Shown: positions 21,701-64,000 of the stretch, in pieces | How the letters are laid out: every line of letters starts with the position of its first letter | Numbering within the stretch: the stretch's first letter is position 1 | Assembly (NCBI RefSeq): GCF_039555335.1 | Contig: NC_092647.1 | Coordinates: forward strand, 15,734,094 to 15,798,093 | Length of the DNA: 64,000 nt | Origin: Amphiura filiformis | Taxonomy: Eukaryota; Echinodermata; Ophiuroidea; Amphilepidida; Amphiuridae | Direction: 5' to 3' | Notes under the pieces: model-generated | Database searches by the model: none | What the model was told of the DNA's origin: nothing | The model's input: the letters and a program-made list of their open reading frames with translations, nothing else | Made by a program: the position numbers and the translations under genes

Positions 21701-24700
21701 AGTCCAGAAATATTTTAAAATTGAACATTTTTTGTCACCGTTGTCGTACTCGTTTACTAGTGTTGTTCTTTTAACCTTTTCCGAACCTCCCCATACAAAC
21801 TTAAAAAACATACTATTTACTTTATTTACAAAACATTGTGGTAAGTCTATAATTGAACCTATATATGAAAATTTTGATGCCATCAAATTTTTTACTATGA
21901 GTATTTTACCAACCATTGATAGGTTTCTCATTGTCCATGCTCTTATGGACTTTTCTATTGAGACCATTTTCGGTTCCCAATTTGCAGACAACTCTTCAAT
22001 ATTAATTGATGGGTTAACTACTACACCTAATAATTTGACACTGTTGTTTGGTTCGAATTTCCAATTGATGTCACCGACCTTCTTTTTCAAACTTTTGCTT
22101 GCGCCAATCCAAACTGCGTCACTTTTTGTTTTATTAAGATGAGACCTGAAATTTCTGTAAAACGGTCAAGGATTTCTATAACTCTATGTATTGACTTTTC
22201 ATCCCTCACAAAGATTGTAGTGTCGTCGGCAAATTGAGTTATTTTAACTTCACCTTCCCCATAGTCTTTAAGGGTAATTCAATACCCCGTATATCATTTG
22301 TTTGTCTTATCTTACTAGACATAATTTCTGACGCTATAAGAAATAATAAAGGAGATAAATTACAACCTTGTCTTAAACCTTCTTCTTGAAAGAAGAAATT
22401 TGACAAATGACCATTGTGTAATATACAACTTACAGTGTTCTTAAACATAGTGGTAATCCATTTTTCAATTGCATACCAAAATTTAATTTCTCAAGTGCAA
22501 ATAAAATCAAATCTCTGTTTATCGTATCGAATGCTTTTCGAAAATCAATGCAAATCATAGCCCCTTCTACATTTTCCTTTTCTGTATATCTCAAAACATC
22601 TTCAACAAGGCGTATGTTTAAAGCTGCACCACGTTTTCTTAAAAAGCCATTTTGGTCTGTGTTAATTACGTTGGGTAAAACCTGATTTATTCTTGAGGCG
22701 AGCACTTTTGCTGCAATCTTGTAATCTATATTCAGTAATGTTATCGGTCTCCAATTATCCAATTTGTTTCTAGTAAGTCCCTTCCCTTTGTGAATTAATA
22801 TAATAATACCTCTTTTATGCAATGCTGCGAGTTCGCCAGCTTCATGTGCTTCATTAAACGATTTACAATCAATTGTCCTACCAATCTCCAATGACATTTA
22901 AAAAATTCTGAAGTTAATCCATCAATCCCGGGGCTCTTACAATTGGCCATTGTTTTAAGAGCCTTTTCACATTCATCATTAGTAAGTAAACTCTCACATG
23001 ACTCTTTATCTTCCTCAGATAACTGTTCAGAGTTCATATTTTCAACGAAATTATCAAACATAAGTTTTGTCGTTTGACCCCTTTTTTTGTACAATTCTTT
23101 GTAATAATCAACTTGCACTTTAATAATGTCTTCTTGATTACTTACATCATTTCCACCTGTATCAGTCAGATAAGTGATAGTTTTATTACTTACATTTCTT
23201 TTTCAAGATTCATAAAATATTTTGTACATCTTTCCCCTTCTTCTGTCCATTTTGCTTTGCTTCTTATGATAAGTCCCTTCATGTGATGGTGATACAGTAA
23301 TTCATATTCTAGTTTTACCTTGTCATATTCATGTACAAAACAATCATTATTTGGATCATCAGTTATCTTTTCAAATAACAGTTTCATTTTCTTCTCCAAA
23401 TTTCTCATTTTAACTTCTTTATCTTTTTTTACTATCTTTTGCAAAGTTAGTAGAAAAAGTTCTTATTCTATTTTTTGCAAAGATCCCACAATTGTCTGGC
23501 ATTCAATATATTTTGACATTCCTGTGTAGTACCATTAACAAGTTTTTCTATACCCTCATTATATTCTTGGTCTTGCAGTAGGCTATTATTTAGCTTCCAG
23601 TAACCAAGCCCTCTTTCTTGTTTTTGTAAAAGTAATTCCATTTCTACCGCCATATGGTCCGACCCAAAGCCCGGTATAATATCAATTTTTTCTGCATAGC
23701 TTTCAAAAGTACACGGTATCAACCAATAATCTAAAGTTGATTTAACCTTTGATGATTTTCTGCTCCATGTAAACCTTTTTTTATTTCCGTTTTTTCTTCT
23801 CCATATATCGATGAGATTTAAAGTTTCAAAAATCTCTTTAATTTTGTTTACACACTCGGATTTATAATATGAGTTGCTTCCAGTACCTAACATATCAAGA
23901 TCTGGGTCAAATACAGTATTAAAATCCCCGCCTAATACATTGTGCTCGTTTAAGCCCACTCCATGCATCAAAATACTTTGCTTAAGAAACTCAAAGAACC
24001 TCTTTCTGTCTTGCAGCTCATTTGGAGCATATATATTCCATATATTAAGATTAACATTATCCATTTCAACTTTGACTCCGAGAAGTCTTCCCTCATTATC
24101 TGCAAAAAACTGATTTGCCTCAATATTACTTTTTGGATTTATGAGAGTAAGTACACCTTTACTTCTATTAGTTCCATAGTTACCAAATATTTGACCTTCC
24201 CACTCTTTTGACCATTCAGAAATGTCATTTGTATTACAGTATACTTCTTGTAATATAGCAATATCATATTTATTACGCTTTAACCAGTCAAAGACAATAG
24301 CACGCTTTTTCTTGTTCCGAAGTCCCGATACATTAAAGCTAATTAAGAAAAGACGCTCCATGATCATTGGTGGTTAATCGTCTCGCACATAATGTCTTCA
24401 TTTGAAGATAGGACACATATACATAATACAATTCTTTTTTTTTTAAATTTTTTTTTTTTTTTTTACATCAGTCTAACTGTTTTATGGAGGGTCCTCATAT
24501 GGTGTTTCATCCGAGGATGCCGACTTCATGGATTCATACTCTGACATACTGGCATATGGCGATGCATGTTCTGTTACATTTGGTGACGCTTGGTGTCCTT
24601 TCTTCTTTTCTTTTTGATCTCTGGGTGAAGTTGATATTTTTCTCTTCTTCTTGTCTTTCTTCTTTTGGCTGCTTCTGCTTTCCGCGTGACTAGTATCTTG

Positions 24701-27493: not shown

Positions 27494-27769
27494 TTACTCT
27501 GTCTGTCATTTTTTGTTTTGACTTTCAATAATAATAAGGACGTTTTGTGCATAATTTTGACATTTTTTTACTAAAACGTCGATTTCTCAGAGTTCACTTT
27601 TGACAATATTGCACGATTTTTGTGACAAGATAACTCGAAAAATATGCAAGCAAAAGGTAAACTTTTTGCACTATCGTTTAGAGTACATCAAAGCCTAGGG
27701 AAGGTTTTCTCATTTTTCAAAGTATTTGTTTAAAACAAAAATATACACCATTCTGTGCAATTTTTAGCT

Positions 27770-28431
27770 TAAGGGCTGGGGTATGAACGTTTGGACAGTA
27801 TTTATTGTGGGACATTAGAGCACATCAGACATATCGAATTGCATTCTGAATACGAAGAATGTCATTCTGATATCAAATAATTTAGATTTTTGAAATTCGC
27901 AATTTAATACACATTTTATGGCAAATCATTAAAATTGATATTTTTGATATTTAACAGTACTTGAAGTAAACTTTATAAATCTGATGATTTATACTTAAAG
28001 TGTATGTAGGTGGGATGAAAAGCCGACGATCAATTGAAAATTTTGACCTTTCGTATTGAAAATATGGATTTTTTTCCCAAAACACCAACAAAAATTAGGT
28101 CTTTTGGGAAAAAAATCCATATCTTCAATATGAAAGGTCAAAATTTTCAATTGACCGTCGGCTTTTCCTCCTGCTACATACACTTTAAGAATATGTCATT
28201 AGATTTATATAATTTACTTCGAGGACTGTTATATATCAAAATTTGAAAAATATCAAATTTTTTAATTTGTCATAAAATTTGTATTATATTGTGATTTTCA
28301 AAAATGAAAATTATTTGATATCAGAAAGACATGCTTCGTATTCAGAATGCAATTCGATAGGTCTGAAGTGCTCTCATGTCCCACAAAAAATACTGTCGAA
28401 CCGCAATAAACGCTCATTTTAGATCCCTTAA
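27770..28431. mobile_element. Full palindromic MITE (TTAAGGG family)
   Basis: About 660 bp made of two ~320-bp inverted arms meeting near 28100. Ends TTAAGGG / CCCTTAA. The arms include CATCAGACATATCGAATTGC and GTGGGACAT. It begins about 280 bp after the gene 1 stop codon, so it may lie in the 3' UTR. Partial copies: 8986-9300, 38518-38645, 51259-51645. Confidence 0.8.
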
Positions 28432-31344: not shown

Positions 31345-34295
31345 AGTTAGTCTCCTACGCGGGCAGTTTGGTTACGCTCCCTCATTAGGCCAGTAAAATC
31401 AGCTGAAAAGGTCAAACAAATTGCAACATGGATTTTTTTGCGGAAAACATTTCTATTAGGTGCCCTTATTAACATACTAAAAGTCTACCAAAATCAACCT
31501 CTGCGAAATATGGATATATCGATTTTTTTTTTTTTTTTTCAAAATGTCCTCCAAAAATGATTAAAATGATGGACAAAATATAGAAAACAGATTCACTATG
31601 TCACTTATTAGTAATAGTAACACGATTCGTATGTCTCAGGCCATGCTTAGAGGGTCTGAAATAAGATTCATCACTTTTTCTCACTTGTAAGTTTTCAAAA
31701 TGGCCGCCAAAATAGCTAGAAGTAGAACGGTCATTATTCCATAACTAAATATGGAATTAAATAATTAGTAAACACAAAATGATAGTTTGGGACCACAAGA
31801 AACCCCACGTACCAGAGAAAAAGGTTTTGACACCCCCAGAGGAACGGGGAAGCCCAGTAACCCCAAACCCTAACGGCATATCGCCCCCACCAATGCATGT
31901 TTCTTGTGACCCTCTACGTATGAACGTATGACAATCTTGAGGGGTGGAACGCCTAAATCGCGGGTCAGTATCAGGTCATGAGAGGTAAGTATTGTGCGCT
32001 TGTGTATCTCCCTCTCACTTCTGAGTGGGAGGAAAGCACTGAGCACCCTCTACTTACCTCCCACGATCTCCTTGATACGCGCAAGGTACCCTCTGAGGAC
32101 CCTGACTGGACACGTCGGTTTCATCGTATATACCCGCAATGAGAACCAGATCAGGGAGGCATATCGGGTAAGGAGTAAAGGACAGGCATGGTCTGGTTCT
32201 TGTTCAGGAACCCAGCCCGAGGAAGGATAAAGACTACCCCGGTGGTGAAGCGTAGGTGGTGCTCGTCTATAGACAGAGCATGTACATAACTAGACAACGT
32301 CAACCGCAGGCCACTGTCATCAAGAACACAGTCTTGAGTGTTAAGTCCTGCAGCGAGAGGTCCTCCGTGGGTTCGAAGGCCTTAGGTAGATACTGCAACA
32401 CCAACAGGAGGTCCCATTCCGGAACCAGGGAGCGAAGGTCTTTCAGCCACCATGCTCTTAATGAGGTCGGAAAGTGCTGGACTCGATAAGACCGTCATAG
32501 ACCCCCCCCCCAAAAAAAAAAAGCCATGATGAACCGCCACAATGGCAGTCCTGTAGGCTGAAGCGGTACAGTTCCCGTGGTAAGGAAATATGTGACTTGT
32601 AGAATCGGCAAAGTCGCGAATCGTAATTCTGTCCAGTTGACTGTTGCCTTGTCTTTCAGCAAGAGCAGCAACCGAATATTAATGGCCCGCTGTCGGGACG
32701 AACTGGCGGAAATACGCCAAACAGTCAGGTGGAGGTTGTTGATCACCTCCATCTGTACCTGGTGCCGGTGGCGTGGCGGAACTGTGAGAAGATCTACGCG
32801 GCATAGACGACTGTCTGGTTTTCCCACGAGAAGGTCCCAGAGGCGGGAGAACCACCACTGCTTGGGCAAGAGGGGAGCGGCGAAAAGGAGTAATCAGTTT
32901 CGAGAATTGGCTACCTTCAGCAGAATCAGAAGGATCATGGCACTGAGAGCGAAGGCATAACCGAATATGCCCTCCCAACTCTCCTGCATGGCGTCCCTGC
33001 CTACAACCATTAATCCCGGGTGAAGTAAGTCAAAAGCTGATGGTTCTGATGGGACGATCTAACCTCTGAAAGATGGACCGACATATGCATACTGCTGAGT
33101 GAGGTGCCACTCTATTAGACAAGAGAGAGGATGACTGACCCCCCCGACGAGGAATCGGCGAGTCAATCCCGGCCAGAAGCTCCGTACCACCTCCACTGAC
33201 ACCACAGAAGGAGGGACACTGTCACCCTGCAAATGTTGGTAGCTGGGACTTTTGGTGCCCCCTCCTTGTTGATGTAAAAACGCAACGGTCATGCTGTCAC
33301 ACTGAGTTGATTTATCCACCAGGAGAGGCAGGAGTGGAGCTGCCGAGACACCGCAATTATGAGGCTCTGAGGATGCCGCCACGCTTGGAACTGCCCGAGG
33401 AAGTATAGCTGTATCTCCTTCGTACGCAAGTGGCAGCGCCGAACGCTGGTCACCAGCCCTAATAGGCAAAGCCACACCCGAGCTTGAATCGATGCCGCCT
33501 GCCTGATAATCAGAGCGCAGAAACAAACATCAGCGATCCTCAAGCCTATTGGAGAGACCCGGACCCTGGCGAAGTCTATCGTTGCCCCAGAATTATTAAA
33601 GTGGAACAGTAAAAATAAGTTACAGTCATGTTGCAGTCATACTGACAATTAAATCACCTGTTCGAATTACCCCTGATGTATAGGTCTTTAGAATCGACCC
33701 TGTAGCTCTTTGTGGGATAAATTTTTGACGATGCTGTATTGAATGTTATATTAGAACCGCCTATCCAATTACCATTCAAATATTTACTCTAAAGTAGCCG
33801 ATGTACATAATATGTGGATTATAACTTACGAGCGTATATGTATTATTTACTGATTCAGCTTCTATGGGGAAAAGTTGATTGCCCTGTCTGTATTCACAAC
33901 CCATAATGAACGTATTTGGCGGCCATTTTGAAATTTTTAACAAAAAATACGCAGCAAATAAATATTTATGAAACGGTTAGGGCATAAGAGCATTTGTAGG
34001 TCAAAATGTCACCCAATTCCCACATGGACACTCATATATATTGAAATCACAAATGTCTATTATTTTACGACAATTTTGAAAAAGTCAATTTTATACATCT
34101 TTTGCAGAGGTTGATTTTGGTAGACTTTGAGTATGTTAAAATAGGGACTTACGAGCAACATTTTCTGAAAATAGAATTCATGTTGCTATTATTTTGACCT
34201 TTGGAGATTTTGGGGCTGATTTTTACAGGCCTACATGTGGAGGGAGCGTGACCAAACTAGTTTTGTAGGAGCTTGTAGGAGACTACGGTTTGCGA
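31345..34295. mobile_element. Third nested element with ~350-bp inverted arms
   Basis: The left arm (TAGTCTCCTAC ... GTTACGCTCCCTC ... AAAGTCTACCAAAATCAACC ... TTTTCAAAATGGCCGCCA) is mirrored at 33915-34295 (TGGCGGCCATTTTGAAA ... GGTTGATTTTGGTAGACTTT ... GAGGGAGCGTGACC ... GTAGGAGACTA). It encloses the DIRS-like remnant. A short hairpin (CCGACATAAAATCATAAT and inverse) follows at 34301-34345. Confidence 0.65.
31850..33600 (-). mobile_element. DIRS-like retroelement remnant (RT, RNase H, tyrosine recombinase)
   Basis: GC-richer than its surroundings. On the minus strand, broken frames give, in order: CLLGLVTSVRRCHLRTKEIQ LYFLGQF (RT, about 33480-33410), MTVAFLHQQGGGTKSP (RNase H, about 33295-33245), RSFWPGLTRRFLVG and IEWHLTQ (about 33185-33090), LPKQWWFSRLWDLLVGKPDS (about 32870-32810), NNLHLTVWRISA, then WDLLLVLQYLPKAFEP and LTLKTVFLMTVA (start of the recombinase, about 32425-32310) and VRVLRGYLARIKEIVGG (about 32100-32050). 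This order matches DIRS-type elements. Many stops; not functional. The family call rests on recalled motifs. Confidence 0.65.
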
Positions 34296-41200: not shown

Positions 41201-44200
41201 GGGTAACATCACGCTGAGGGGCGGTGTTATGCCTAAAAGACATACCAAAGGATTGCGGAGTAAAGGGGTAAAATGTTATGCCTAAAGGACATACCAAAGG
41301 ATTGCGGAGTAAAGGGGTAACATCACGCTGAGGGGCGGTGTTATGCCTAAAAGACATACCAAAGGATTGCGGAGTAAAGTGGTAACATCGCGTGAGGCGA
41401 TGTTATGCCTAAAGGACATACCAAAGGATTGTGGAGTAAAGGGCTAACATCACGCTGAGGGGCGGTGTTATGCCTTAAAGACATACCAAAGGATTAAGAG
41501 CACAGAAATAAATCAAATGCTGGAACTTACGTTTCGTTAACACGACGTTTCGTCCGAAACCATCGGACATCATCAGGTGACTGAGGTCGATTGGTCACGT
41601 GATCAGTCACCTGATGATGTCCGATGGTTACGGACGAAACGTCGTGTTAACGAAACGTAAGTTCCAGTATTTTATTTATTTCTGTACTCTTGATTTACCA
41701 ACTGGATGATTAATCTACACCAAGATATACCAAAGGATTGCGGAGTAAAGGGGTAACATCGCGTGGGGCGATGTTATGCCTAAAAGACATACCAAAGGAT
41801 TGCGGAGGAAAGGGTAACATCACGCTGAGGGGCGGTGTTATGCCTAAAAGACATACCAGGAAAGTTGAAAAAGAAGGAGGGAGAACGGAATTATATCCTT
41901 GAGATAATCCCGTAGGTAATCCTGTCGCACCTATTCATAGTCCTTTATTCTCAAGTATTTACACATCTACTTGAAAGTAGCCTTTGATGTGATGTGTGTT
42001 GCCGACTACGGTTGATTAATTTTCACTCCAGAATTGAAACCATATCCAATGTTTCTATAGAGAATCCCTTGAAAGTATGACACGTGTGTGTTAAGTACCT
42101 GATGTTGCTCTGAAGGGATGCCACACGTGGATACTATAAGAAAGAAATGTAGTTTTGTAAAGATTCCAAAAAAATCCGCCAATTTTGGAACATATATTAA
42201 TTATTTAGGAGAGGGTTTTAGGATTTTGTTAGAAAAGGGATGATTTTTGATCATCTATATTTTATTGTTTTATGTATTTTCCTGTCATTTCCTGCAAACC
42301 TAATAAAGATATTTTGATAATTGAAAATAGGCTGTATCATAAATCGTAGAGGTTGAAAGCGTAACCAAGCGTGCAAAATTGTTATTTGCCATGGAACTTC
42401 GGTCATATTTTATTTGAAATAAACTGGATGTTAGGATCTGCATGCATGGTATGCAAAGTATTGATGGTATACAGACACTGACCTTTCCCTAAAACTAGTA
42501 AGCAGCAACTTGTGTATCACACCCGTCACGGGTTCGAACCCTTTTGTTGTATTTTATTGTTAAACCTAAATAGCGTGATTGCTTTTGAATGAGCGGCAAC
42601 ACACATATTTTGTTTGAGGATAGCTGGATCTATCTCCTTTCTTCACATCTTCTCTGGACATACCAAAGGATTGCGGAGTAAAGTGGTAACATCGCGTGGG
42701 GCGATGTTATGCCTAAACAGGAGGGTGAAAGTGCATAGGAACAATGCCGGAAACTACGTCACGCTATTGTTCGACTTAGACTACATATTTTTAACGCATG
42801 CGTGTTCGTCAATACAGCTTTTAGTCTCCTCCACCTTCGCAACACGGTAGGCCTACGTGAAGTGTCTGGAATCACACTGACGGCGGAGGAGAATACTAGC
42901 TGGTCAGACAGTTTAATTTTTACAAGCATATAATACCTGAACAATCACCGTCATTTGATCGATTTACTACAGAATATATTGTATATTCAAAATATAATTT
43001 TAATATTGTAAACCTGTTAACTTGTATATTTGTGTACTAAAGTATAAGGACACGTGAATAAAATCACGTCGAAGACAAAATGGCCGCTAATCCGCCTATT
43101 GTCTAGACCTAGGATACATATTTCAACAGAGGGCAGCAGTCTAGGATTCCTATCCCTTTGTCTATTATTCCTGGCCTAAAGGACATACCAAAGGATTGCG
43201 GAGTAAAGGGGTAACATTACGCTGAGGGGCGGTGTTATGCCTTAAAGACATACCAAAGGATTAAGAGTACAGAAATAAATCAAATACTGGAACTTACGTT
43301 TCGTAAACACGACGTTTCGTCCGAAACCATCGGACATCATCAGGTGACTGAATTAGGTCGATTAGATACCTCAACTAAGTCTGAGGAGTATTGTGGTTTT
43401 TGAGAGGATACCATTTTGGTGAGTTATATATTTTATAATCAAGAGATGATATTATTTGGTGAGTCGTGTATATTTTTATTATGCTATGTGATGGTAGTGC
43501 ACATTCTGTTGGAATCATATTGGGGTTTTTTTTGTCGTAATTTTAAGATCATGATGCATGATACCTTGCCATACATGCGTGCCGTGTTTGCAAGTGTCAT
43601 TACATTAGCATGCGCTGAGCGGGGCTACTATGCCCAATTTTCGTTTGCCAAAAAGTAGTTGTGTTTTATATAATATTTGATTAAGATTATGATGATACCT
43701 TGCCAATACATGCGTGCCATGTGTTTGCAAGTGTCATTACTATTAGCATGCGCTGAGCGAGGCTACTATGCCCAATTTTTCGTTTAGTACCAAAATAACC
43801 TTGCCAATACATGCGTGTCATGTGTTTGCAAGTGTCATTACTATTAGCATGCGCTGAGCGAGGCAACTATGCCCCGGGACTATGCCCAATTTTTCGTTTA
43901 GTACCAAAATAGGCCTTTCATATTAAATTGTATTAACACATTTTTTCTATTGATTGTCATTCTCGTCCTTGCTGCAGAGAGGGTGCTAGCTGTGTAGTAT
44001 TGCAGAGGTAGTGGTAGGAGTAGGAAGCTAGAGTATAGGATAGGGGTGTGACTGAGTCTTGTATGTTGTAGTCTGGAAATAAGTAAATAAAGTACTGTTG
44101 AAGTTAAATTGGAATTATTTAGATGCACTTCTGTTTGTAAAAGATACTCTGAAGGTGGGGTTCTGCCCCCACGACTTGCCACGTCTCATTACAAAACTTT

Positions 44201-47200
44201 TCGTGTTCCCATTTTGGGAACTGGTGTCAACCCGGCCACCTGACTTTCATATTCAAAGTTACCGACCAATCAGGTTTCATAATTAAACATACATTGAGAC
44301 AGTTCCCAAATTTGCATGGGCGTCCTCACATTATGACATCATAGCGATATTATGTGGGGAATGTTTGTACCTATTTGAGATTACTGGATAGAAGAGACCC
44401 ATAGCTATACATTAGTACCAAATATAACGGTACACGACGTTTATAATTATAAGGGGGTCGCAACAACCCCCCTCTTCGTAGTGCCTGTTACAAAATATGG
44501 CTCAATAGTTCTTGGGTTAATGTCTGGCATATATAACATGAAAATGGAAGGTATTTTAAAAGAGCCATGTACACCAGTAGCGTACCGTGGCCGCTCCTAC
44601 CCTGGGGGCTGAAGAAAATTCAATTTTGCCGCCCCTTCCTCAACAGCCCGAAAAGGTTCACCCAATTTTTTTTTTGGTGGTTTGAAAAAGTGAAGAGCAA
44701 AAAAACAAAAACAACAAAAACAACAACAAAAAAAACAGGATTTTAGGTGCTAGCGCCCAAAAAGCAACACATTGTACCATTTTTTCACAATTTTTATACT
44801 TTTTCAAATTTTTCCGCCCTTTTTCTTTACTAATTCTTTTTGCCGCCCTACTTTTTTGCCGCCACCGTTTTTGCCGCCCTTCTTCTTCCGCCGCCCCTTC
44901 GTTTTGGCCGCCCCCTGCTTTTACCCCGTGGGGCTCGCGCACCCAAAGCTCCCCCCCAACAAAAATACGCGCATGTACACGACCCCCCAGAGTATTTAGT
45001 TTTAAGTTTGAGTTTCTTATATCATTGTGTACTGTGTTTATTCCTGATTCAAAGTTGCAACTGGATAAATTTTATGAAAAAACACTTTGATCATTATTCA
45101 ACATCACTTGCAAAAAGCAACTTGATTTGAAGATCTGGTGCTACATTTATGATAATTATTATATGGTGCCCACTTTTGTGGGCAAAAAAATCTACGTTAT
45201 TGGGCAATGGGCAAGTTGAATTTACAGGACGGGCAAAATAATTTACTGAGTGGGCAAATTAATACTCACCCAGTTTCCTGTTATTTACCTCCCTGAATTC
45301 TTTTTATTACTATTTATTGAATTATTTACTTACGATAAATATCTCTTTGAGCTCAACTGAATGCATTTATTGTGATTAAAATATGTTATTGTCTATGAGA
45401 GAGAGAGGGGTAGTGAGTGAGAGAGAGGGGAGGTGGGGTATTATGCAGTCACTAGATAGATGCACACATCTTTATCATATTATGGTGTGGTTTACTTCAA
45501 TTCTCTGTGTCAACTATGCGCTGAACCTGGGTTTGACCCGTTTTGTCGAATTATGAACTAAAATTGGTGAACTAGTCTGATGATTCTTTTTAATATTGTT
45601 GTTTTTACACACTATAGCTCTATATAGGTCACACCATACACTCCCTCTTCTGAGTTTAAGTTTCTCTTTTCTTCAGAAACCAAAAATCAGGGGATTCAAA
45701 ACAGGACTCAGGTCTTGTCTGCAATCATAACGCCTAAAGGCTGAATTTATACTACATCGCTGAGCGATAGAGATTTGTTTGTAGCCAATGAGGTAGAGCG
45801 CTTTTTGTTGCGTTGGGAAAAGCGCTGCTACCTCATTGGTCAAATACCAAACGCTTTTCGCCCATCAAATTCAAATTCAATGTAGGCAGGACACCCACTC
45901 GTGTATTATAGTAATATAACTATTGTCATGATTGTAAGCATACATTTTTATTTTTTTATTTTTTATTTATAACATTCGGCCGAAGCCAGGCTAAACCCAA
46001 TAGTGCTCAGAGGCTACTAAATTCAAGGGATGCCTTCAGATATGACGGGACAGGGATATGGGAAGAGGTCCGATTTTAGAAGCAGGAGGAAAACCGGAGC
46101 ACCCGGAGAAAAACCTGCGAGGACGAGCATGGATCGGCAACCAAACTCACATGTGGCACCGCGGGGAATTGAACCCGGGCCACAGTGGTGAGAAGCGAGT
46201 GAGAAGACCAGTGAGAAGTGGTGAGAAGCAAGTGAGAAGACCACTACACTAACCCGCCCTCCCATATCCACCAAAAAAACGTTGACAACGTTAAGAAAGC
46301 AGCAAGTTTAAAAAGCCCCCACCTCGGCTCACTTTTTGAAACTTGGTCCCATTTGTAAAAGATACTGATTTAATCTTTGTCATAATTATCAACTTAAAAC
46401 ATTTCCAGAAGTGTTATGTATCTTTAATGTGCCGATGAGATATTAAGTTGTTAGCATTCTGGAACGATCAGAAAGGTTATTATGTTGTTCTTGGCCAATA
46501 TCCTATATATGTTTTGTTTTATAATAATTATTTAGTTCATGACCAATGATTGAATTAAACGAATAACAAGTAGGCATGTTAATGGCAATGATCCCAGCAA
46601 ACACAAAAACTTTTTAAAAACGTTTTAAATAAGTTATATTTTGGCTTTTGGTTTAGGTAAAACGTTTTAATAACATTAAAATGTCGGGTTATATAAAGGT
46701 CATGATAACTTTTAAAACGTTTTGTATGAAAACACACTACAACAATATTTTTAAATGTTTTCAAAAATGTTATTGTAAACTATTTTTGCAAACATTTTTG
46801 CCAAATATTGTGTCAATAGTTAAATAACATTATGTTAAAATATTTGAACCCAGCAAACACAGAAATGTTCTTAAAATGTTTTTCAAAACCTTTTAATAAC
46901 ATTTAAATGTCGGGTTATATAAAGGTCATGAAAACGTTTTTAAAACGTTATTGAAAATATTTTGGGCAAACGTTTTTCGCAAAATATATTTTCAACCCCA
47001 AAATAACATTCTGTTTAGAATGTTTTGTATCAAGTTTTCAAAAATGTTTTTGGAATGTTATTAAAACGTTTTTATACCCTTTATATAACCCGACATTTAA
47101 ACGTTTTCTGTAAAACATTTTGGTTTGCTGAGCAGTAGATTATCAAAAAATGATTTTTAAGGTTATGAAAACGTTTTATACTCTTAATATACCCTTTATA

Positions 47201-50200
47201 TAACCCGACATTTAAACGTTTTCTGACAACCTTTTATAACCTTTTTGCGAATGATGTCGAAAACGTTTTGTGTTTGCTGGGATGCTATTGTTTAAACGTT
47301 AAAAACACCGATTTGCTGTTGATATTCAAAATGGGACCAAGTTTCAAAAAGTGAGCCGAGGTGGGGCTTTTTAAACTTGCTGCTTTCTTTTACGTTGTCA
47401 ACGTTTTTTGGTGGATTTTCTTTCTTTTTATGAATGTAGCCAAGCAGCTCTAAGCTTGGAAAGTCATCGGGTTACGAAGTACGTTAACGTTACGAAATAT
47501 GTTATCCTTGATTTATGACAGTAAATAATTTAATAAAACTTTATCAGCCGTTTATTTTGTATACTTGCTGGTCACTGCTACCGCGTGACTGTAATGTTAA
47601 TAGGGATACATATACATTTTAATATACTTTAATTATTCAAGGTAAAATGTAAATACGAACAACACATACCCAATGTTGACGATACCAGCGAGACACAGAG
47701 TCAGTCCGATTTACTTCAAATTGAAACTATGTAGCAAGGCTTATACTACGGAAGCGTCTAAGTGCCACGACTTAGCAAGATAATTATGTTTTAATGATTG
47801 TGGTTTTGTAGCCCTGCGGGCAATCTAGTTGGATATCCAAATTTCGCGGTTGATAGTTCTTTGTAGCCCTGCAAGGGGCAATCTAGTTGGATTTCCTATT
47901 AAGCGGCGGTTGTTGGCGGTCTTTCGCGGTTTGTAGTTTTGATTTCCCTCATTCTTCATGCCTTACCTTCAATCGGGGGTTAATTTATAGTTTAAGCTTG
48001 TTGGATAACTATACTTCGCGGTGTGTGGTTCTTTGTAGCCCTGCCGGGCAATCTAGTTGGATATCCAAATTTCGCAGTTGACAGTTATTTAGATTTATAT
48101 ATCTAGTTGGATTTCCCTATTAAGCGGCGGTTGTTGGCGGTCTATCGAGGCTTGTGGTTCTTTGCAGCCCTGTGGAAAATCTTGTTGCACATTCCTATAG
48201 GCTGTGGGGACAGTCCCTCCTTTCAATAGGCCTTTGTGTATTTTTGCCGCTTTGCTAATTTGTCTTTACGTATGACTTTAATGGCCTTCCATATTTGGTT
48301 GTCTCTTTTTGGATACGTTTTTGTCCCTGCTGGCCTTCCATATTAGTGGAACAATTTTTCACACCTATAGAGTGTATGCAACAAACCAACCGGAACGGTA
48401 TAACAATTGAAATGACAGTCATGTAGGAATACAGTTCTACGATAGCTGAAGATGACAGAGGGACAGGTCTCTAGATCGATTCAACAACCATTCATACATA
48501 TAACATGTTTTATTGTCCTATTATCATGCGAATCACCCCGTGGTAGGACAGAACTTTATCTAAATGAGAAAATATTGGTAACCTGATCTAGTTTCTAGAT
48601 TGTTGTGTTGTTCAGATTTAAATAAATAAAGAAAGTAATAAAGAGATTTCTTTTATTATTTGTTCTGCTAGCGGCTGCACTATAGGTTTTTTTTTTAAAT
48701 AGGCCCTTAATATAATAAATAAAACCTGAGAATCAAACATAAAAAAAATAATATCACAATAGCACTGGATGATTAAAATTGTGTTATCCTTGATTAATGA
48801 CAATAAAGTTATTGTTTAATACAATATTGAAAAAAACAGTTGATCATCGGGTTTCGAACTCGGATCCCTGGATCCGGAGTCGAACGCCGAAACCGTTGAG
48901 CTACGGGACTCTGATATAAATTGCTGTGTCGAAGTACATTATTTATTATATGAATGGGTGCATCGTCCGGAAAGAACAAAAGAATTTTTATCTAGGGTAT
49001 CTCAGAATATGTGGCACATATATGGGCGCTAAGTTGTAAATTTGCCCATTTTGGCCCCAGATGTTTAAGGCTAGGGGACCCAGAGGCTCAAATGTTAAAA
49101 TAAAGGGCATGTCGTTTCTCAGCAAATAAAGGAGCTACATGGTTTAGATTTGGTACACTAATTAGGTCTAAAGCATTATATTGTTATATGTATATATGAA
49201 CCCCGTGTGTCACATAATATGGGCCCCAGGGCCTCAAACGCTAAAACATAGGGCCGGCCGTTACTCCGTAAAGAAAGCAGCTACAATGTCCAGCTTGAGT
49301 CTGCTGATAGCACTTGAGAATTATATTTCAACATATGCACATGAGCCCCAGAAGTCAAATATTATGGGCCCCGGGGCCCCAAATGTTAAAGCAAAGGCCC
49401 AGCCGTTTTTCATCAAATAAAGCAACTTTAGAGCTCAGAGTTTGTACACAGATTGCACCTGAGAATTATATTGTTATATGTACATATGAGCCCCATATGT
49501 CACTCCATTGATGGGCTGACGTTAGGCATTCCACACTGGTAACAAATCCAAGTCATGCTTGAATTTGCATGCGCTTCATACTGCAGTTACTGTCCGTTTT
49601 CCTATACACAATACACAGTGCTCTCACCATTGAGCTGTGACCTCTACAAATCGTGCCACGTTAAAAGGATAGGCATTTGCCTAGTTAACGTCAATGTGTG
49701 AAAAATACCCGGCCAATATTAAAAATACTCTCAAAAACTTCTAGCAAATATATTTCTCTAACATGACCTAAAATTACAGCTAGGTTAGATGTTCAGAAAT
49801 ATTCGTACTTTGGTAAAACAGTGAGTGAGGGCAAGGCATAGCTAGCCAAATCGCGTGTTAATTGAATGGAGATTTGACCGAAAATTTTGGTAAACGGACC
49901 GCTCACTTCTGAAGAATGCCACACGAAAACGGTACAAGCTACATTTAAAGTACTCTCTGTTCGATCATCATGATGAGTTTTTTTAATAGTATGCCGAAAT
50001 TTGGTACTGTAGGTAATTGACAAAGGGTCGTACTTCGCTGATGAGTAAGTGACAGTGAACATGAAAATCAGGGCCCATAACCCAAGTTAGTAGCTAGTTA
50101 GTGGAGGCCGTCACGGGACTGATTATTGATTATTGAAGTGCCTTATTAATAGATACGCACGATTTAGGGCAAGAAAAAAAAAACCGGGACACTTTTGGAG

Positions 50201-50201
50201 A

Positions 50202-50250
<49 letters not shown>

Positions 50251-52567
50251 GACATCATCATCATCATCACTTTCTACATTTTTTCTAAACAACATAGGGC
50301 CTACCGTTTTAATAAGATTTTTTTCTTGAAATGCATGTAACTATAATTATTGTTTAGAGCGTGATGAAATAAAACATCACGATTTTCATCACAAAACAAA
50401 TATAATGCATAAGAAATCGTTTGTTTTAGAGCGTGATGATGAAATAAAACATCACGGTTTTCATCACGAAACAAAGTAATACATAAGAAATCGTTTGTTT
50501 TAAAGCGTGATGAAATAAAACATCACGATTTTCATCACAAAACAAAGTAATAGGCCTACAAAAGAAATACATTTTTCGAGAGTGATTAAATAAAACATCA
50601 CGATTTTCATCACGGAACAAAGTAATACATAAGACATCGTTTGTTTGATTGCAATCAACCGCGACAGTTCGTCTCACACACATAACAATGCACTGCGATC
50701 AAATAGGTTGATGACAACATTTGATTGAATGGACTGCACTGCGCCATCCTTTGTTTGGAGCCAATCAATAATTTCACGTACAGCCTCTATGCAAATTAGA
50801 GTTTACACACGCTGCAGCTGGGGTAATCGACCGAAGCTGGTTGCCGTTAGTGATCGAATGCATGAGCTTATTTGCTTTATTGAATCGATTTACTGGATTA
50901 ATTTCCTGTTAACTGGGTTTAATGCCACAAAGGTCGAATCGGGCTTGCCATGGACCATAAGTGCATCATGTCGTAGATTGCAAATGGCATCTTCATGCAC
51001 TGCACGTGGTACCAACCACAACATTCATCGCACTGTAAGGGTCGGTTCATAGTGCATATTCGAAGGCGAATATTCGACTTCGAATACTTTTTGTGACGTC
51101 AAAATATATACGGCAACGAATAAAATATGATGACAGGCCGAGTTGAACCGGATTAAATATCGCGCAACTGATAGCGAGATACTATTGATTTATATGAAAG
51201 GCTCGAGGTCACCTGAATATCGTTCGACGAACGATGATTTCAAAATCCCCAATGAAAATTAAGGGATCTGGAATGAGCGTTTTGAGCGTTTCGACAGTAT
51301 TTTTGTGGGACATGAGAACACATCAGACATATCGAATTACATTATGAATACGAAGAATGTCTTTCTGATATCAAATAATTATAATACAAATTTTATGACA
51401 AATTATTAAAATTTGATATTTTTCACATATTGATATATAACAGTCCTCGAAGTAAATATTATAAATCTAATGATATTTTCTTAAAGTGTATGTAGCTGGG
51501 AGGAAAAGCCGACGATCAATTGAAAATTTTGCCTTTTTCCCCAAAAGACCTAATCTTTTTGGTGTTTTGGGGAAAAATCCATATCTTCAATACGAAAGGT
51601 CAAAATTTTCAATTGATTGTCGGCTTTTCATCCCACCTACATACAGGGCCGTTCCTAGGGATTTTGCCGCCCTAGGCAATGCCTCTCCCTGCCGCCCCAC
51701 CAAAGCATACCAAAAAAAGTATTAAGGGGGTTACCCCCTTGAAAACTCCTCAGTTTTGACCTATTTGTATACTGCCCACGACCGTTTTCCTCAGTGGCGT
51801 AGATTTCTTTTTGACATTGGAGGGATGGGGTTGCCATGAAAAAATAAATCTTGAATTATAATGCGCGTGAAGCGCGCGAAAAATATTCCCATTTTTAAGC
51901 TAAACTGTTGAAATGTGGTGCAAAAATGAAATAGATTCGCGCGAAGTGCGGAAAAATTGCAATTTTGGGACTGAAATGGCCAAATAAGAGGTGAATTTGT
52001 CAGAAACCCACATACATGCGTCAACATTGGGAGGGGGGAGGGGGATGATTGTATGGACCATCCCCTGGCAAAATATTGGGGATTTACCCCCCCCCCTGGA
52101 TCTACGCCTATCAGCCAATGAAAAAAGTATTCACCGGAAATATATTTGTGAAACTATGCAGAACAACCAAAACCACGAGCGTTGGTACCCTATCATTGCG
52201 TGTTCTTTTAAAATAAATTCTTGTTTATTTCTATAATTTGTGAATCGATCAGACATTAAAACACACTTAGGCCCTAGCAATGTAGGTCTACACAAGTTCG
52301 GAACGAGACGTTTTATCTTTTGACGCGTATTTCGGTCGAATGCCAAAATTGATTGCTCAATGAATCATGAAATGAGAGCAATACTACTTTTATGATACCG
52401 ATCTCAAGTGGATATCAGCCAATGTATATTTGTGGGAGTTGAATTTTGTTGAACTCGACAGATATATATTTGGTGGGTCACCGTGGGTGGTCTCATATAT
52501 AACACTTGTGAGGGCTGTCATATTTGCCGTCGCTTCAATCATAGGCTATCTTATGATATTTATATAT

Positions 52568-52650
<83 letters not shown>

Positions 52651-55600
52651 TCTATTTATTGATTTATTGATTGATTTATTTATATTTATTGATTGATTGA
52701 TTGATTTTTTAAAATTATTTATGCATTTATTGACTTATTTATATATTTTTTATTTATTTATTTATTTATCTATTGAATCATTCATTTCTTGATTTGCTTT
52801 GCAGTTGAAACCTACAAGAAGGTATGGGTCAACCTCCGCGCCTGTTACAGGCAGGTCGTAAATGCCCCGAAAAGCAAATCTTTTTGACTCCTATTCAGGT
52901 CAGGTGCGTAACCAGACCTGACCTGGGGGGGCAAGATTGAAAAATTTCCCAATTTCTGATCAAAAGTTTTAGTATTTATGTTCGAGAGAAAGCTCGCTTG
53001 CCACGAAGCGTTAAACGGGTGGGGTCCAGGGGTCCAGGGGCAAAGCCCAGGCGGGGGTCAAGGGGGCTGAGCGTCATGAAGCTCCTGGTTTTTTGGCATA
53101 TTAGAAAATATCAGTGTTTCAGAGTACACATTTCACAATGAAAGTAATAGGCCTATAGATCTTCTCTCTTTCTTTCCCTTTCTCTTCTCCCTTGAGTCCC
53201 TTCCCTTTCTCTCTCCCTTCCCCTTTTCTTCCCTCTTTTTCTTTTCTTCTTTCCCTTTCTCTTCCCTCTTTCTTTCCCTTTTTCTCTTCTCCTTCCCTTT
53301 TTTCTCTTTTTCCCTTTCTCTTCCCTCTTTTTTCTTTCCTCTTTCCCCCTTCCCAATTTTTGACTCTTCTTCCAGGTTTTTGTGTCCGGCGGCAGCTTGC
53401 ACCCCCGGCCCCCACTGGTTACGCCACTGCTCCTATTTAGACCCATTTATACAGACATTAAATCATGACAATAATTCAATGGAGTTCACCTATTATGATT
53501 TTATTAACTTCGTTAAAGAAATTCTCTAAATTTTGCTTACCTTGGTCAACGGGCAATACTTGTTAACAGTCGGGCAACGCTGTGAATTGTAGAAATATAT
53601 CTTTCTCCGGTTCATAGTTTTATATTCGAAGCCGCATATATTTTGACGCCCAAAACGTATTCGAAGCCGAATATTCGCCTTCGAATATTCACTTTGAACC
53701 AGCCTTAAGCAATCCTGACCCCACTTGGCAGCTTTTTCGCAGACAAGACAGGGATACTTAATAGGGCGGGGCCCAGGGTTTAATTCGGTGTCGCCTGCCA
53801 GTAACAGGAGGATAATGAAGAATGACGAATTCCTTTCAATTTTGAATTTGGGTTTCACAACACTGTGCTTGAAACTACTGTTGAATACATTCAATGATTG
53901 GGTGGGGGTTACATCAAAGTCAGAAGTTGTAAAGTGATGTAGAAAAACAAAGTTCAAGCCGTTTGTTTTGGTCAAATACAGGCAGATGTCAATAAAACCA
54001 AAAACACAAGTGGTTTCATTACTGCTGTTGTTGTGGGGGTGACCATATGGGGCACGTAAACTGTTGTTCATTACATCATCGTATGGAAAAGTGTTATGAG
54101 TTCCAGTAGAAATGTGCCATACACTGATGACAAACTGCATTAATGTCAACAATAGAGTTATTAGTGGTTGCATCCTGAGGCTGAGCAATAACAACCAGCA
54201 ATGTCAATGGATAAACAATTTGATGTTTCTCACTACATATTAAACAAATAAAGCATGGGTAGATCTCACCAGTCAGTGATGGACAATAAACTAGCAGAAT
54301 TCCACTATCCACAGAGTAAAGCCCCAGGTTCAGTGATCCGTATCTTCCGCGGGAATGAGGTTGCCGAATTATGCAGACATGCACTTGCACAGAGATTTGG
54401 TATGTGCAAGATAATCCAGAAAAATGGCATTTAAAATCCACAAAATGGAATGAATCCGAGTTCATACGGTGGAGAAATCATAAACACACAAGGTATGATG
54501 AGAAATGAGGCTTAGATTATCAGCTAGGCAATAAAAAGAAAGCAAAAATGTGGGATGATGCACAAGGTAACTCCGGCACTGCGCACACGCATCAATATAC
54601 AAAGAAATGAAGCAAAAGTGTTTGTTTATTATTAAACAATGGTTGACTGTAGGATTGGTGTCCCTTTTTGAATTAATGAGTTGTCAAGATATTACATTTG
54701 GGACTCTAAATAACATTATACATGGTTTTAGACACACTTTGTACCCAGCGAAAAATATCATAGAACAATAGAAGTCAAATGTTTTAATGTTAGGTGTAAA
54801 TATAGTGTCGCGGGAGCATCTTATTAGTCTTCTTTAACAGTCTTTTTTTTTAAAAACTTGCTGGTCACGGCTACCGCGTGACTCTAATCCGTCTTTGTGT
54901 TATGTTGAATGTAGACAACATGGATCGGATATCAATCACACGCGTGCACGGTGACTGGTGCATTCATAAGCGACATTCAAATGTTTGTTACACAGCCGTG
55001 ACATTAGTCACGGCTGTGTCTTTTTTCTTACAGGATCTTCTTCTTTCTTTCTTTCTTTGTTTATTTCTTTCTTTCTGTCGACCATTACATTTGCTCTAGC
55101 ACTGACATGCTTGCACCGATTTTGACCTAACTTGGTCACAACCAGCACTGACCATGCCCCAACATGTCACATGAAAGTCGTTTGGTCAAAGGTCACGTAG
55201 GGGTCACAGAGGTCCAAAACGTGATTTCAACTCAAAATGCTACTTCTCCCACAAATTTTGCAGGACAGTAACGCCACTTGCACACATGCATTGTTATTAC
55301 CCAGTGTATATGAATCATACACAGATTTGAGGTCAAAGGTCATTCAGGGGTCACTTCCTGTATAAAACCAAATTCCTTCAAAAAATTTTATTAGCTAAGA
55401 AAAACATAGGAGAGTGACGGTATGTGCACACATGAATTATGTTTACCTTATGTATATGTGGTATTTTTTTTTTTAGAGTCAAAGGTCATTAAGGGTCACT
55501 TCCAGTATAAAACGAAAAACCTTCAAAATTGTTTATTTGATAAGAAAAACACAGGACAGTAACAGTATGTTCACACATGAATTGTGGTTACCCAATTCAT

Positions 55601-58600
55601 ATGTGGTATTTTTTTATTTGGGGTCAAATGTCACTTCCGGTCTGAGACGGAAAACCTTCAAATACCCCTTCTGCCACAAGTAACAAAGCAAAGTGGTGCC
55701 ACACGTGCACCCATGCATTGACATTAGCCAATGTCTATGGGCGTTTTCATATATTTTGGGGTCAAAGGTCATTAGGGGTCACAACACGGCTGTGTTCGTG
55801 GGTTAGACCACAGCTAAGTCTAGTTTTGTTTTTAATCTGACAGAATTTCATAGCTCAATATGTGAAACCAACGGGCATCCAGCATTGGATTGGTCTTCAT
55901 GATATTACCACTGAAGACGTGTGGACCTGGAGTGTGGATGAGGAAGTAATGGACGATGCACAAAAGTAAGTTGTAGGATTTTCAGGAAATGGTATCAGTC
56001 TGTGCTCCAATCTCTTATAAAAACTCTCACATAGTATGTGATGCGATCAAGCAAAATCAGTCGGAACTCGGCAATCCTAGTTTTGAGATATGGGCGAAAT
56101 AATATATGTAGGGGTAGAAAAATCAAAATTGATTTTTTTTTGTTGCAAAAATGAAAGGGAAAAACATTTTTCTTTCACATGAACATAATTTTGATGAAAT
56201 TCCAAAGGAAAATGGGATTTTTGACCCCATACAACTTCGATGATTGTCAAAAATCGTGAAATTATTCCAAAAGAAGCTCGGATTTAGCGTTTTATTATGC
56301 CAAATGTGTGCTAAAAATAACTCAAGTAAAGTACTCTAACTTTAAACTTGATTTTCTCCTTTATTTTTTATTATTTTATTATTACTGTACCGGTATTCAC
56401 ATTGTTGTAACTTTGTAACCAAAGGTCGTATTGAAATGGGGTTTTCACTAATGTGGAGCTTTAATACGCTTAATGAAAATATAAGAATCCCAGAATTGAC
56501 CTGGGCCTATTTTAGACTGATTTTGCTTGATCGCATCACATATGAAATATCCAGAGGGTTCATTTTCCCCACTACCTAGAACTCTCCGCACAGCGTCATC
56601 ATCCCCATATCTTCGTGTCAAAAATTGCCGGGATAGTACGGCGAATCTTCTCGTTTTTCAATAGCTACGCATGGCGATTTTGTTCGAGATTGGCCGAGTG
56701 ACTCAGGCTAAGCATACCATTTACACCATACGACTATCATATGAGATACCACCAAGTTTCTATTCTACACATTATTACGATTTGCGCATGCGCTAGTTCC
56801 CCATTATAATGTTGCTATTACAAGAAAATTCGATTTGTTTTCATGTAAAACCCAGGTTTTATTTTTAATACACTAACTTGAAATTAAATACACTAATTAG
56901 TGGCCATGGCTGTTTGATGTGGATATATTTTACTGCATTTTATAAGTAACGATTTTTAAATCGTAAAAGAAATTGTGATATATTTAATTTTGAGAATTTA
57001 CAATTATATAAAGGAACACATTTAGCCCATTTACCTAAGATCCAGGTGCTTGTATAGAATATTCAATCATCATGGTCTATAACACAATGCATATGTAAAC
57101 TTTATTTATATGTGTCAATAAGGCCAAAAAAAAGGTTTGTCTCAAAGCTCACGAGAAATTTAAAAACAAATGCGAAATGCGATTTTTTTAAAAAATTTTT
57201 TATTCCCGACTTTTTTCATGAGAAAAAAGTTTGATTTTCACCGATTTTTATGGAAAAAACTAAAAAACATTTTTTTTGGGTCAAATCTTGCGATTTTGCA
57301 AACGCGCGCGCAATCTTTGAGACAAACCTTTTTTTTTTGGCCTAATAGAGTATTGATTTCAATATAATCACCAACGGAGTATGGAGCTGTATGGAAAAAA
57401 TATTTATAACATAGGGTGTTGACACTGTGCTCCGTAGCTCACTTGTCATTATGCATAAATGATAAATCTGATTTGTGTTATTTGTTCACAATTATTTTCC
57501 TGATCTTTACTCCCTTTGTTTGCTTGATACACAAGTGATATGATATTTGCTCGGGATTTCGCGATCAATAAACTGGTAGACCCCTAAATCAGAAATGTTA
57601 GGCAGTATGCAGACTCCGACTAATAGACGTATACTATTTGATGTAACATATCTACGTTATTAAATCTAGTCCCATTCTATTTCCAGTAATGTTTAAGTTC
57701 TAACGAATGTTTGATGACGTAAAATCGATAATATGTTACGTATAATATCTAGTAGAAATATTAAAGGGCATTTCGTGATCCACAGCCTCATCCCTCCCCA
57801 CTTTTCTCAAAAAAAGTTGAGATTTTTATATCACTGGAAACCTCTGGCTACATGTTTATGTACAAAATATTTCTTGCAGATTAATTCGTTTTGCAAAGAT
57901 ATCGTGAAATTTGAATTTACAACGCATTGTCTATGGAGCAGTGTAATACACATAATCATGCATAACTCGCAAACGCAAAATCGGAATCAACTGAAATTTT
58001 GGGAATAGGTTTTTTTCGTGGATATGTACTGAAAAATATCATCAAAAAAGGATGCTAGGATCACGAAATCCTCCTTTAAATAGAAAGATTAAATAACGTA
58101 GATATGTTACATCAAATGTTTTACGTCTAATAAGTCTGCATACGGCCTAAGTATAAAGTAAGCCCTTATTATAATTATAATTATACCAAGACAAGTTGCA
58201 TTCGTTAAGATACATATACTTTATTGTCATTAATTATATGAACTTTTTATGACCATTTATTGAATACTTTACTTGTGATAAATATCTTAAATAAACTTAA
58301 AGATTGCAGGGTTGCCTATAGGCCAAGAGGGGGGTGTCTCATCTCATTTATATTTATCTGTTGTCTTGTCACTCTGTCCTACATTTTTACTTGAAAATGT
58401 TATTGTCTCAAATTGATCAAATTGCTGCAAACACGAAATGTGTGCTGCCTACATGAAACAAACTTTTTTAGCCTTATGATAGTCTAAATCTATATGCCTA
58501 TCAAATATCTGCATGTTCGTGTGTTTTCATTGATAGTATGTGGGATGCAGGACAACCTGATAATTATGGTAGTGGCGAGGACTGTGCAGAGATGCGAACA

Positions 58601-59227: not shown

Positions 59228-61680
59228 ATGGAATACATGAGTCGTCGTCGTCGTCGATCTACTCATATCTGAGTATTCGTGACCTTTCTGATGAAGTTTC
59301 TCCACTCATGTCGATCTTGTGCTTTGGTGTAACAACTGTAAATTGACATTTTGGTTAACGAAACAATTCCATCTGTCCACCTGAGTCTCTGTCTTCCTCT
59401 GCTTCTCTTCCCCTCAACTTTTCCGAAAAATTATCACTTTCTCTAGATTGACTCCTTCTCGCCTGGCAACATGTCCAAAATACTGTAACTTCTGTTTCCT
59501 CACTGAATTGATGAGTGAGACTTTCTCTCCTATTTCATGCCGAACACTCTCATTTGTCCTTTTGGCGGTCCATGGGATGCATAGAAGTTTTCTCCAGCAC
59601 CACATCTCAAATGCTTCAATCCTTCTTTGATCTGCCGCATTGATCACCCACGTTTCACACGCATATGTTGCGATCGGGAAAATCAAAGAGGAGACAAGTC
59701 TAATCTTTGTTGACTTGCTGATACTTCTGTCCTTCCATAACTTGTGCATGGTGCATATTGATGTTTTTGCCATTGCTATGCGACGTCTGATCTCAGTAGA
59801 GCATCCGCCTTGGTTTGAAATCATGGATCCAAGGAAGTTGAACTGTTTGATGACCTCAATTGCTTGGTTTCCTGCATGAATAGTGGTGTTCTCTTCTTGT
59901 TGGTTGATGACCATCACCTTGGTTTTGCTTACATTTAGAAAAAGGCCAAAGTTTTCACTCTCCGTTCTCACTCTTTCAATCAGCTCCTCAAGTTCACAAG
60001 CACTGTCTGCTAGTAGGGTAGTGTCGTCCGCATACCGTAAGTTGTTGATGGTTCTGCCTCCGACAGATATTCCAATGCTGCAACTCTCAAGGGCCATTCG
60101 CATAATATACTCTGCATATGCATTAAACAGATGAGGAGACAAAATGCATCCTTGTCTCACCCCTTGCTCGATTTTGAACCAGGTACTGTCATCACATGTT
60201 GTTCTAACAATTGATTCCTGATCGTCATAGAGTGTCCTAAGCAGTTCTTCCACATGTTTTGGGAAGCCCATTGATACTAAGGTGTCCCACAGTTTTTGAT
60301 GTTGAACAGTATCAAATGCTTTTGAATAGTCGATGAAGCACATGTAGACTGGACGGTTGAATTCAATAGCTTTCTCTGTAATATTTCTGATGTTTGCTAT
60401 TTGGTCTCTTGTGCCTCTGCCTTCCACAAAACCGGCCTGCTCTGGGGGAATCTCACGACGCATGTGCTGTTTGATCCTCTCAACCGTGATGTACAGCATG
60501 ATCTTACTTGCATGGGAGATTAGAGAGATGGTCCTGTTGTTTTTGCATTCTCTTGTGTTGCCCTTTTGGGGAGTGGTAGGAATATTGATCTGGTCCAGTC
60601 TATCGGCCAGCTCTTGTCTTTCCATAGAAGATTGCATAATTTGTGCACCACATCCACTCCTTCATCTCCGGTTTCTTTGATCAACTCTGCTGGGATATCA
60701 TCATATCCTGGTGCTTTACCTGTCCTCATTTTCTTCATTGCCATCACCACTTCTGATCTCAGTATGTCAGGTTCATTTTCATCAACCTCAATTGGTTCTG
60801 TTTCACCTCCTAAACCATCTTTACTTGCATACAGCCCTTGACAGTACTGTTGCCACCTCTGTTTGATTTGATCACTCTCAGTTAGAATTTCACCATCTTC
60901 ATCTTTGATTACATCCAGCTTTGGTGTTTTCTTCCCTGTGATTTCTTTCACTGCTCTAAAGAGATCCCTGTAGTGGTTGGTAGAAGAATGTGATTCAACC
61001 TCTTTGCATTTCCTTTCAAGAAAATCCTGTTTATCTTGTCTGGTTCTGCGTTGAATTCTCCTGCTTAGGTCTTTATACTGCCTTTTGTCCTTCTCCGTTA
61101 GTATGCCTCTTGCTTTCACCTGTCGTCTTTCGTCTGCCATTGTACCCACTTCCTCTGATATCCATGGCGATCGGGTTTTCTTTGGTTTCGGCAAGTTGTT
61201 CTGTGCTGCTGTAGAGATTGCCTTCTTGGTTTGTTCCCATAATTCATTAGGTGTCCACTCTTCTTCCTGTTCAAGGAGTATCTGAAAAGAGTTCCTGACT
61301 TCCACTCGGTACTGTTCATTAATACGATTAACATCATATCTACGTGGAGGAGTGTCCCGTTTGACTGACTTCAGCTTTGATCGAATTTCAGCAACCAGAA
61401 GCTGGTGATCTGAACCACAGTCTGCTCCTGGGTATGTTTTTGCTACCTTCACACTCGACCTCCATCTTCGTTTGATTAAGATGTAATCTATCTGATTTCT
61501 GGTCCTCCCATCTGGAGATATCCAGGTGTAAAGCCGTCTAGGATACTGTTGGAATAGCGTATTTGTTACGATCAGCTCATTTTCGTTGCAGAAATCAGCT
61601 AGTCTTTCCCCTCTCTCATTAGCTTTGCCCAGTCTAGAGCAACTTTGATGACTTATTAAGAAAAGTAAATCTCCCATAGA
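59228..61680 (-). mobile_element. RTE-like LINE, 5'-truncated
   Basis: Antisense to gene 2 in the intron after exon 4. It keeps the end of the endonuclease, the whole reverse transcriptase and the C-terminus, and finishes in a short (GAC)n-type repeat (59240-59260), a kind of tail seen in RTE elements. At least two frameshifts make it defective. Confidence 0.82.
59269..61677 (-). pseudogene. RTE-like endonuclease-reverse transcriptase, frameshifted
   Basis: The 61677-60520 frame holds RTRNQIDYILIKRRW and GSDHQLLVAE (endonuclease end), then GKAPGYDDIPAELIKE (RT start). A shift near 60560 moves to the 60637-59414 frame with NNRTISLISHASKI, EQAGFVEGRGTRDQI, CFIDYSKAFDTV, GVRQGCILSPHLFN, LRYADDTTLLA, NFLGS and MWCWRKLL. 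A second shift near 59428 leads to GRQRLRWTDGI and the natural stop near 59269. The YADD catalytic motif is intact. Confidence 0.85.
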
Positions 61681-61689
61681 ACACCACAG

Positions 61690-63714: not shown

Positions 63715-64000
63715 GCAGTGGCGTAGATTTCATTTTGACATTGGGGGGATGGGGTTGGAAAAAAATCTTAAAGTATAGTGAATCCAGCACCTTTTGGCGA
63801 CATAATAAGTTTATGGTACAAATGCGCGAAAATTTTTGCTATTTTGAAGCTAAACTGATGAAATATGGTGCAAAAGTGGAATAGATGCGCGCTAAGTGTG
63901 CAAAAATTTGCACTTTTGGGGCTAAAATGGGCAATATGAGGTTAATTTGGTCAGAAACCCATATTCAGATGTCAACATTGGTGGGTGATGATTGCATGGA
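63715..64000. repeat. Dispersed repeat (AGTGGCGTAGATTTC family), second copy
   Basis: Parallel to 51790-52100 in order and wording; it runs off the window end. Confidence 0.75.

Follow-up and report, generated by a model that had tools for sequence, protein, structure and literature searches.

We consider it probable that the 2A-PHD part of a CR1/L2-type LINE remnant was invaded at a TAA by a non-autonomous TIR element with arms of about 95 bp, most likely of the PIF/Harbinger superfamily, and that the TAA was duplicated in the process. The element occupies 2.67 kb of the window (the whole stretch of 64,000 nucleotides that was analysed) and separates two halves of a minus-strand coding sequence for a PHD-type zinc finger; its long TIR arms, the exact TAA copies at its edges, and a hAT-type copy nested within it are directly visible in the sequence (Table 1).

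Table 1. Coordinates of the interrupted open reading frame, the insert and the elements within the insert (positions of the window).
Feature	Position	Strand	Remarks
Upstream half of interrupted ORF	53709..54203	-	Hydrophobic stretch, GDTELNPGP (NPGP at 53780), first PHD ligands CLVC
Downstream half of interrupted ORF	50921..51038	-	LQCDECCGWYHVQCMK..., terminates at stop
Inserted TIR element	51039..53705		2.67 kb; probably non-autonomous PIF/Harbinger-like
Left TIR	51039..51133		GGGTCGGTTCATAGTG...
Right TIR	53612..53705		Reverse complement AGGCTGGTTCAAAGTG...
Left target copy TAA	51036..51038		GTAA if 4 bp from 51035
Right target copy TAA	53706..53708		TTAA if 4 bp from 53705
Truncated copy of palindromic TTAA-flanked family	51259..51645		Begins at TTAA 51259; far end missing
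Piece with presumably hAT-like ends	51792..52114		Ends CAGTGGCGTAGAT.../...ATCTACGCCTATCAG
(TATT)n 4-bp tandem repeat	52557..52774	+	
Nested hAT-type element	52896..53429		Ends CAGGTCAGGTGCGTAACCAG / CAGTGGCGTAACCAG

The interrupted reading frame can be followed on both sides of the insert. A minus-strand open frame (53526-54203) leads from a hydrophobic stretch through GDTELNPGP to CLVCEKAAKWGQDCL at the insert edge, and the minus-strand frame LQCDECCGWYHVQCMK picks up again at 51038; the first two cysteines of the finger are thus encoded up to 53709 and the remainder from 51038, both on the minus strand. When the flanks are joined with one target copy kept, a single frame crosses the break, which bears out the proposal of the initial annotation that the finger halves come into the same frame once the insert and one target copy are removed; its statement that the upstream ORF stops at a TTAA has to be corrected, as this ORF continues into the insert, to 53526. 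The NPGP motif occurs once in the six frames of the whole window, within the upstream half. The stop-free pattern C-x(1,2)-C-x(7,21)-C-x2-C-x(4,5)-H-x2-C is absent from all six frames of the window as it stands and appears once when the flanks are joined. As a control, the downstream half was fused in frame to 127,780 window positions, on both strands and with the true site included; the cysteine pattern spanned the join in 2,452 cases (1.9%), and because of this background it is by itself no more than suggestive. Of 18,146 sampled frames, 147 (0.8%) held open stretches of 165 codons, the sample including real LINE ORFs and the interrupted ORF itself.

Searched against Pfam, the joined stretch of 103 residues matched the PHD family PF00628 with an E-value of 6.6e-6 and 26.5 bits (cut-off 24), covering profile positions 1-34 of 47; five further families were listed for this stretch, all under their cut-offs. 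Since the downstream half alone, with 24.2 bits at profile positions 14-36 of 47, already exceeds the 24-bit cut-off, the upstream half contributes just 2.3 bits, and the upstream ORF alone matched no Pfam family at an E-value of 1. The C4HC3 ligand set of the PHD finger is incomplete, with the last two zinc ligands absent in frame ahead of the stop that ends the downstream half. The finger sequences were also compared with solved structures by phmmer, with matches listed up to an E-value of 10; here the joined finger found the Pygopus PHD structure 2vpb as the first of 37 listed matches (E 0.0021, 21.9 bits). The upstream half alone yielded 11 listed matches, headed by a Gag polyprotein (E 0.066) and with Pygopus at best at E 0.68; the 18 matches listed for the downstream half alone began with origin-complex subunit 1B (E 0.051), followed by several named PHD proteins, and Pygopus was missing among them.

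In its hydrophobic stretch followed by GDTELNPGP, the upstream half resembles the 2A / StopGo peptides of APE-type LINEs, reportedly the subject of Odon et al. 2013. The 2A-like motif as worded in an excerpt of PMC4981915 is D[V/I]ExNPGP; DTELNPGP differs from it by a threonine in place of V or I at the second residue, and agrees in the rest. The finger is likewise reminiscent of LINEs of the CR1/L2 lineage that carry a PHD domain: the portion of PMC4120745 consulted names 2vpb_A as the top match for the PHD domain of five out of nine PHD-bearing CR1 and L2 groups, by a profile-profile method rather than the phmmer comparison used here, and describes two groups with apparently one ORF and an N-terminal PHD. 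In contrast to these LINEs, the present sequence is a stub that lacks the last two ligands, and neither an EN nor an RT domain was detected beside it. With stops read as X, and with the reduced sensitivity that reading through stops and frameshifts entails, a Pfam scan of the three minus frames of 48040-51039 at an E-value of 1 recovered the PHD half only (17 bits, below cut-off), and nothing appeared at an E-value of 0.1 in the three minus frames of 43002-48100, the three plus frames of 48002-51000, or the three minus frames of 53704-57002. Because these scans revealed no APE endonuclease or RT downstream of the stub, its membership among the LINEs is claimed by layout; the "2A-bearing LINE" of the initial annotation is thus retained for the 2A-PHD arrangement and qualified for the missing EN and RT. 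We infer from this layout that the interrupted sequence is a decayed LINE remnant of the CR1/L2 type. Given the missing last two ligands, the threonine in the 2A motif, and the EN- and RT-free scans, the insertion is probably not the sole cause of the stub's decay.

It is highly improbable that the two halves were joined by chance, or that the interrupted gene is a host gene with a 2A sequence rather than a LINE. The frequency of the cysteine pattern among the control joins would permit the former; the latter would agree with the lack of detectable EN or RT near the stub, and with the 2A-like signal sequences that are also carried by sea-urchin NLR genes (excerpt of PMC4981915). Against both speak the shared frame of the halves with a 2A-like motif immediately upstream, the long TIRs and target copy placed precisely at the break, and the match to a Pygopus-type PHD, as published for the PHD fingers of LINEs (PMC4120745, in part).

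Elsewhere in the window, a minus-strand LINE-like series at 20820-26057 contains a CCHC zinc knuckle, an endonuclease match (PF03372, 2.8e-12), a zf-RVT match below cut-off and an RT-like ORF at 22430-22897; a second LINE at 59414-61689 carries a reverse transcriptase (PF00078, 1.1e-37) and endonuclease matches under their cut-offs. The C-type lectin exon-like ORFs (PF00059) at 15152-15547 and 19551-20033 probably belong to host genes; together with the LINEs, they give the window its animal-like character.

The two TIR arms of the insert match over 50 nt at 92% identity without gaps and over 98 columns at 84.7% with gaps; insert boundaries near 51039 and 53704/53705 are confirmed. The duplicated target can be read in three ways: as GTAA/TTAA with one mismatch and ends at 51039/53704, as an exact TA/TA in the register 51038/53705, or as an exact TAA/TAA in the register 51039/53705. 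The joined sequence is identical under all three, except for TTAC or TTAA at the break. Only the TAA reading is both exact and in the ungapped TIR register, and MAFFT aligned the arm ends without a gap; the gapped BLAST alignment of the arms extends via a gap to 51036/53707, a register that suits TTAA or TA. The TTAA reading requires a mismatch in the duplication as well as a one-base gap in the TIRs. The registers were compared in a simple model in which all bases are equally frequent, indel rates are assumed to lie between 0.005 and 0.03, and the arm divergence is 0.143 (12 mismatches in 84 aligned bases; 72 matches and 1 gap in 85 columns). The lead of TAA came to ln 3.5 to 6.4 against TTAA and, with specificity left aside, to ln 1.9 to 3.8 against TA; since TTAA has the higher specificity, a deduction of 2.1 leaves TAA a lead of approximately ln 1.4 to 4.3 over it. 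The insertion target was thus probably TAA rather than TTAA. Two further candidates, a 4-bp TAAG/TAAG and a 3-bp AAG/AAG duplication, were rejected since they lie one and two bases, respectively, off the ungapped TIR register. For the "TTAA transposon" with a 4-bp target of the initial annotation, the right copy is indeed TTAA, but the left copy is GTAA, and the exact TAA pair scores higher; the insertion target is not proved, contrary to what that annotation claimed.

The TAA reading, one of the three, gives the 3-bp TAA/TTA target duplication of PIF/Harbinger elements and their MITEs. In the part of PMC2213677 that bears on this, elements of this superfamily were mined in M. truncatula by the motif G(N)5GTT together with TAA/TTA duplications; the left end of the insert, GGGTCGGTT, fits this motif, which stems from a plant study and fits 409 of 127,982 window positions, whereas the right end starts with A and reads A(N)5GTT. 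The insert differs further from the autonomous plant elements in its arms of about 95 bp, which exceed the 14-25 bp that the same source gives for the TIR arms of those elements, and in the lack of a detectable transposase; with stops read as X, the insert had no Pfam match in the three plus frames at an E-value of 0.1 or in the three minus frames at an E-value of 1.

The main rival to a PIF/Harbinger-like origin, with a real but minor share of the probability, is a non-autonomous, TTAA-targeting element of the Kolobok kind in whose left copy a mutation turned TTAA into GTAA (coding strand: TTAC). Kolobok elements combine TTAA with an RR terminus, and one published full-length copy has a mutated ATAA (excerpt of PMC6004289). 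In the register 51039/53704 the insert has purine GG at both ends and TTAA on its right edge, like Kolobok and T2-MITE elements, and the gapped BLAST alignment of the arms is in keeping with that register; unlike them, it has GTAA on the left edge and needs a gap in the TIRs. The window also contains a second, TTAA-flanked family, whose full copy is bounded by TTAA on either side, and a copy of this family inside the insert, together with the TTAA on the right edge, keeps the TTAA reading alive; against it stand the substitution in a 4-bp copy, the one-base TIR gap, and the lower score relative to TAA. The exact TA/TA pair in the register 51038/53705 would be accounted for by an element of the Tc1/mariner kind that targets TA and has the ends AGGG/AGGC, yet it too needs a TIR gap, and, placed below TAA by the model, it is a quite improbable source. 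The piggyBac-type parent that had been suggested is disfavoured: TTAA at one insert edge is shared with piggyBac and the coral CMITE elements, but the insert ends begin with GGGT and GGCT instead of the CC[C/T]T that piggyBac ends generally carry (PMC2872659, in part).

Returning to the PIF/Harbinger-like element inserted at TAA, a transposase from a parent element would have acted in trans and made a staggered cut, and insertion at the TAA of the 2A-PHD coding part would have duplicated this TAA. Later, a hAT-type element inserted into the TIR element, as probably did the palindromic TTAA-flanked element, and simple repeats expanded.

The elements inside the insert record this later phase. 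The nested hAT-type element is bordered by exact 8-bp copies, CTCCTATT, at 52888-52895 and 53430-53437; the 8-mer has one further occurrence in the window, at 59527, three in all. The target duplication of hAT elements is 8 bp long, which is the length found here. The palindromic copy within the insert is truncated, and since its far end is missing, its arrival by insertion is presumed; the complete copy of this family, approximately 655 bp, lies at 27769-28431 with TTAA at both ends, and another copy is located at about 8986-9306. The ends of the piece between the palindromic copy and the tandem repeat are those that we take to be hAT-like termini; this piece has no exact flanking duplication of at least 6 bp, and a relative with 71% identity at 63716-64000 runs off the end of the window. 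In order of arrival, the stub is the oldest, followed by the TIR element and then by the hAT-type element; the palindromic copy probably also postdates the TIR element. The nesting, the shared frame, the TIR arms and the duplicated target uphold the earlier proposal that the 2A-PHD sequence preceded the insert.

Within the window, a search for the TIR at up to 3 mismatches returned two matches, both of them the arms of the insert itself. Two TIR patterns gave no match each in viral_contigs, and none was found in genome_contigs; these collections are viral or prokaryotic, and such misses carry little weight. In the same viral and prokaryotic collections, a pattern of the joined 2A-PHD peptide matched 11 stretches of viral_contigs and 122 of genome_contigs, none of which was upheld by tblastn, and the pattern of the palindromic TTAA family had no match in the viral collection viral_contigs. 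The window had no Rfam match at gathering scores, and no tRNA was predicted by ARAGORN with the bacterial code. Two more long inverted-repeat pairs, of 92 and 90 nt and about 96% identity, at 41603-43351 and 46266-47416, are probably other DNA transposons; at 31365-34258, inverted repeats at 76% identity surround a stretch of 49% GC (other 2-kb window steps range from 31 to 41% GC), and its three ORFs have no Pfam match.

It could be asked whether the insert represents a putative undescribed family of animal DNA transposons with PIF/Harbinger-like ends and ~95-bp arms made up of repeated GAATATTCG-type blocks, a family that would have grown to 2.7 kb by collecting other transposons; we regard this as rather unlikely. 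The split of the finger coding sequence is real, and the case is an ordinary nested insertion that raises no new mechanism. As a clear worked example of such nesting, from stub to TIR element to hAT-type element, it demonstrates that an AT-rich edge can mimic TTAA where the ungapped TIR register yields an exact TAA, and that the superfamily assignment changes with this reading.
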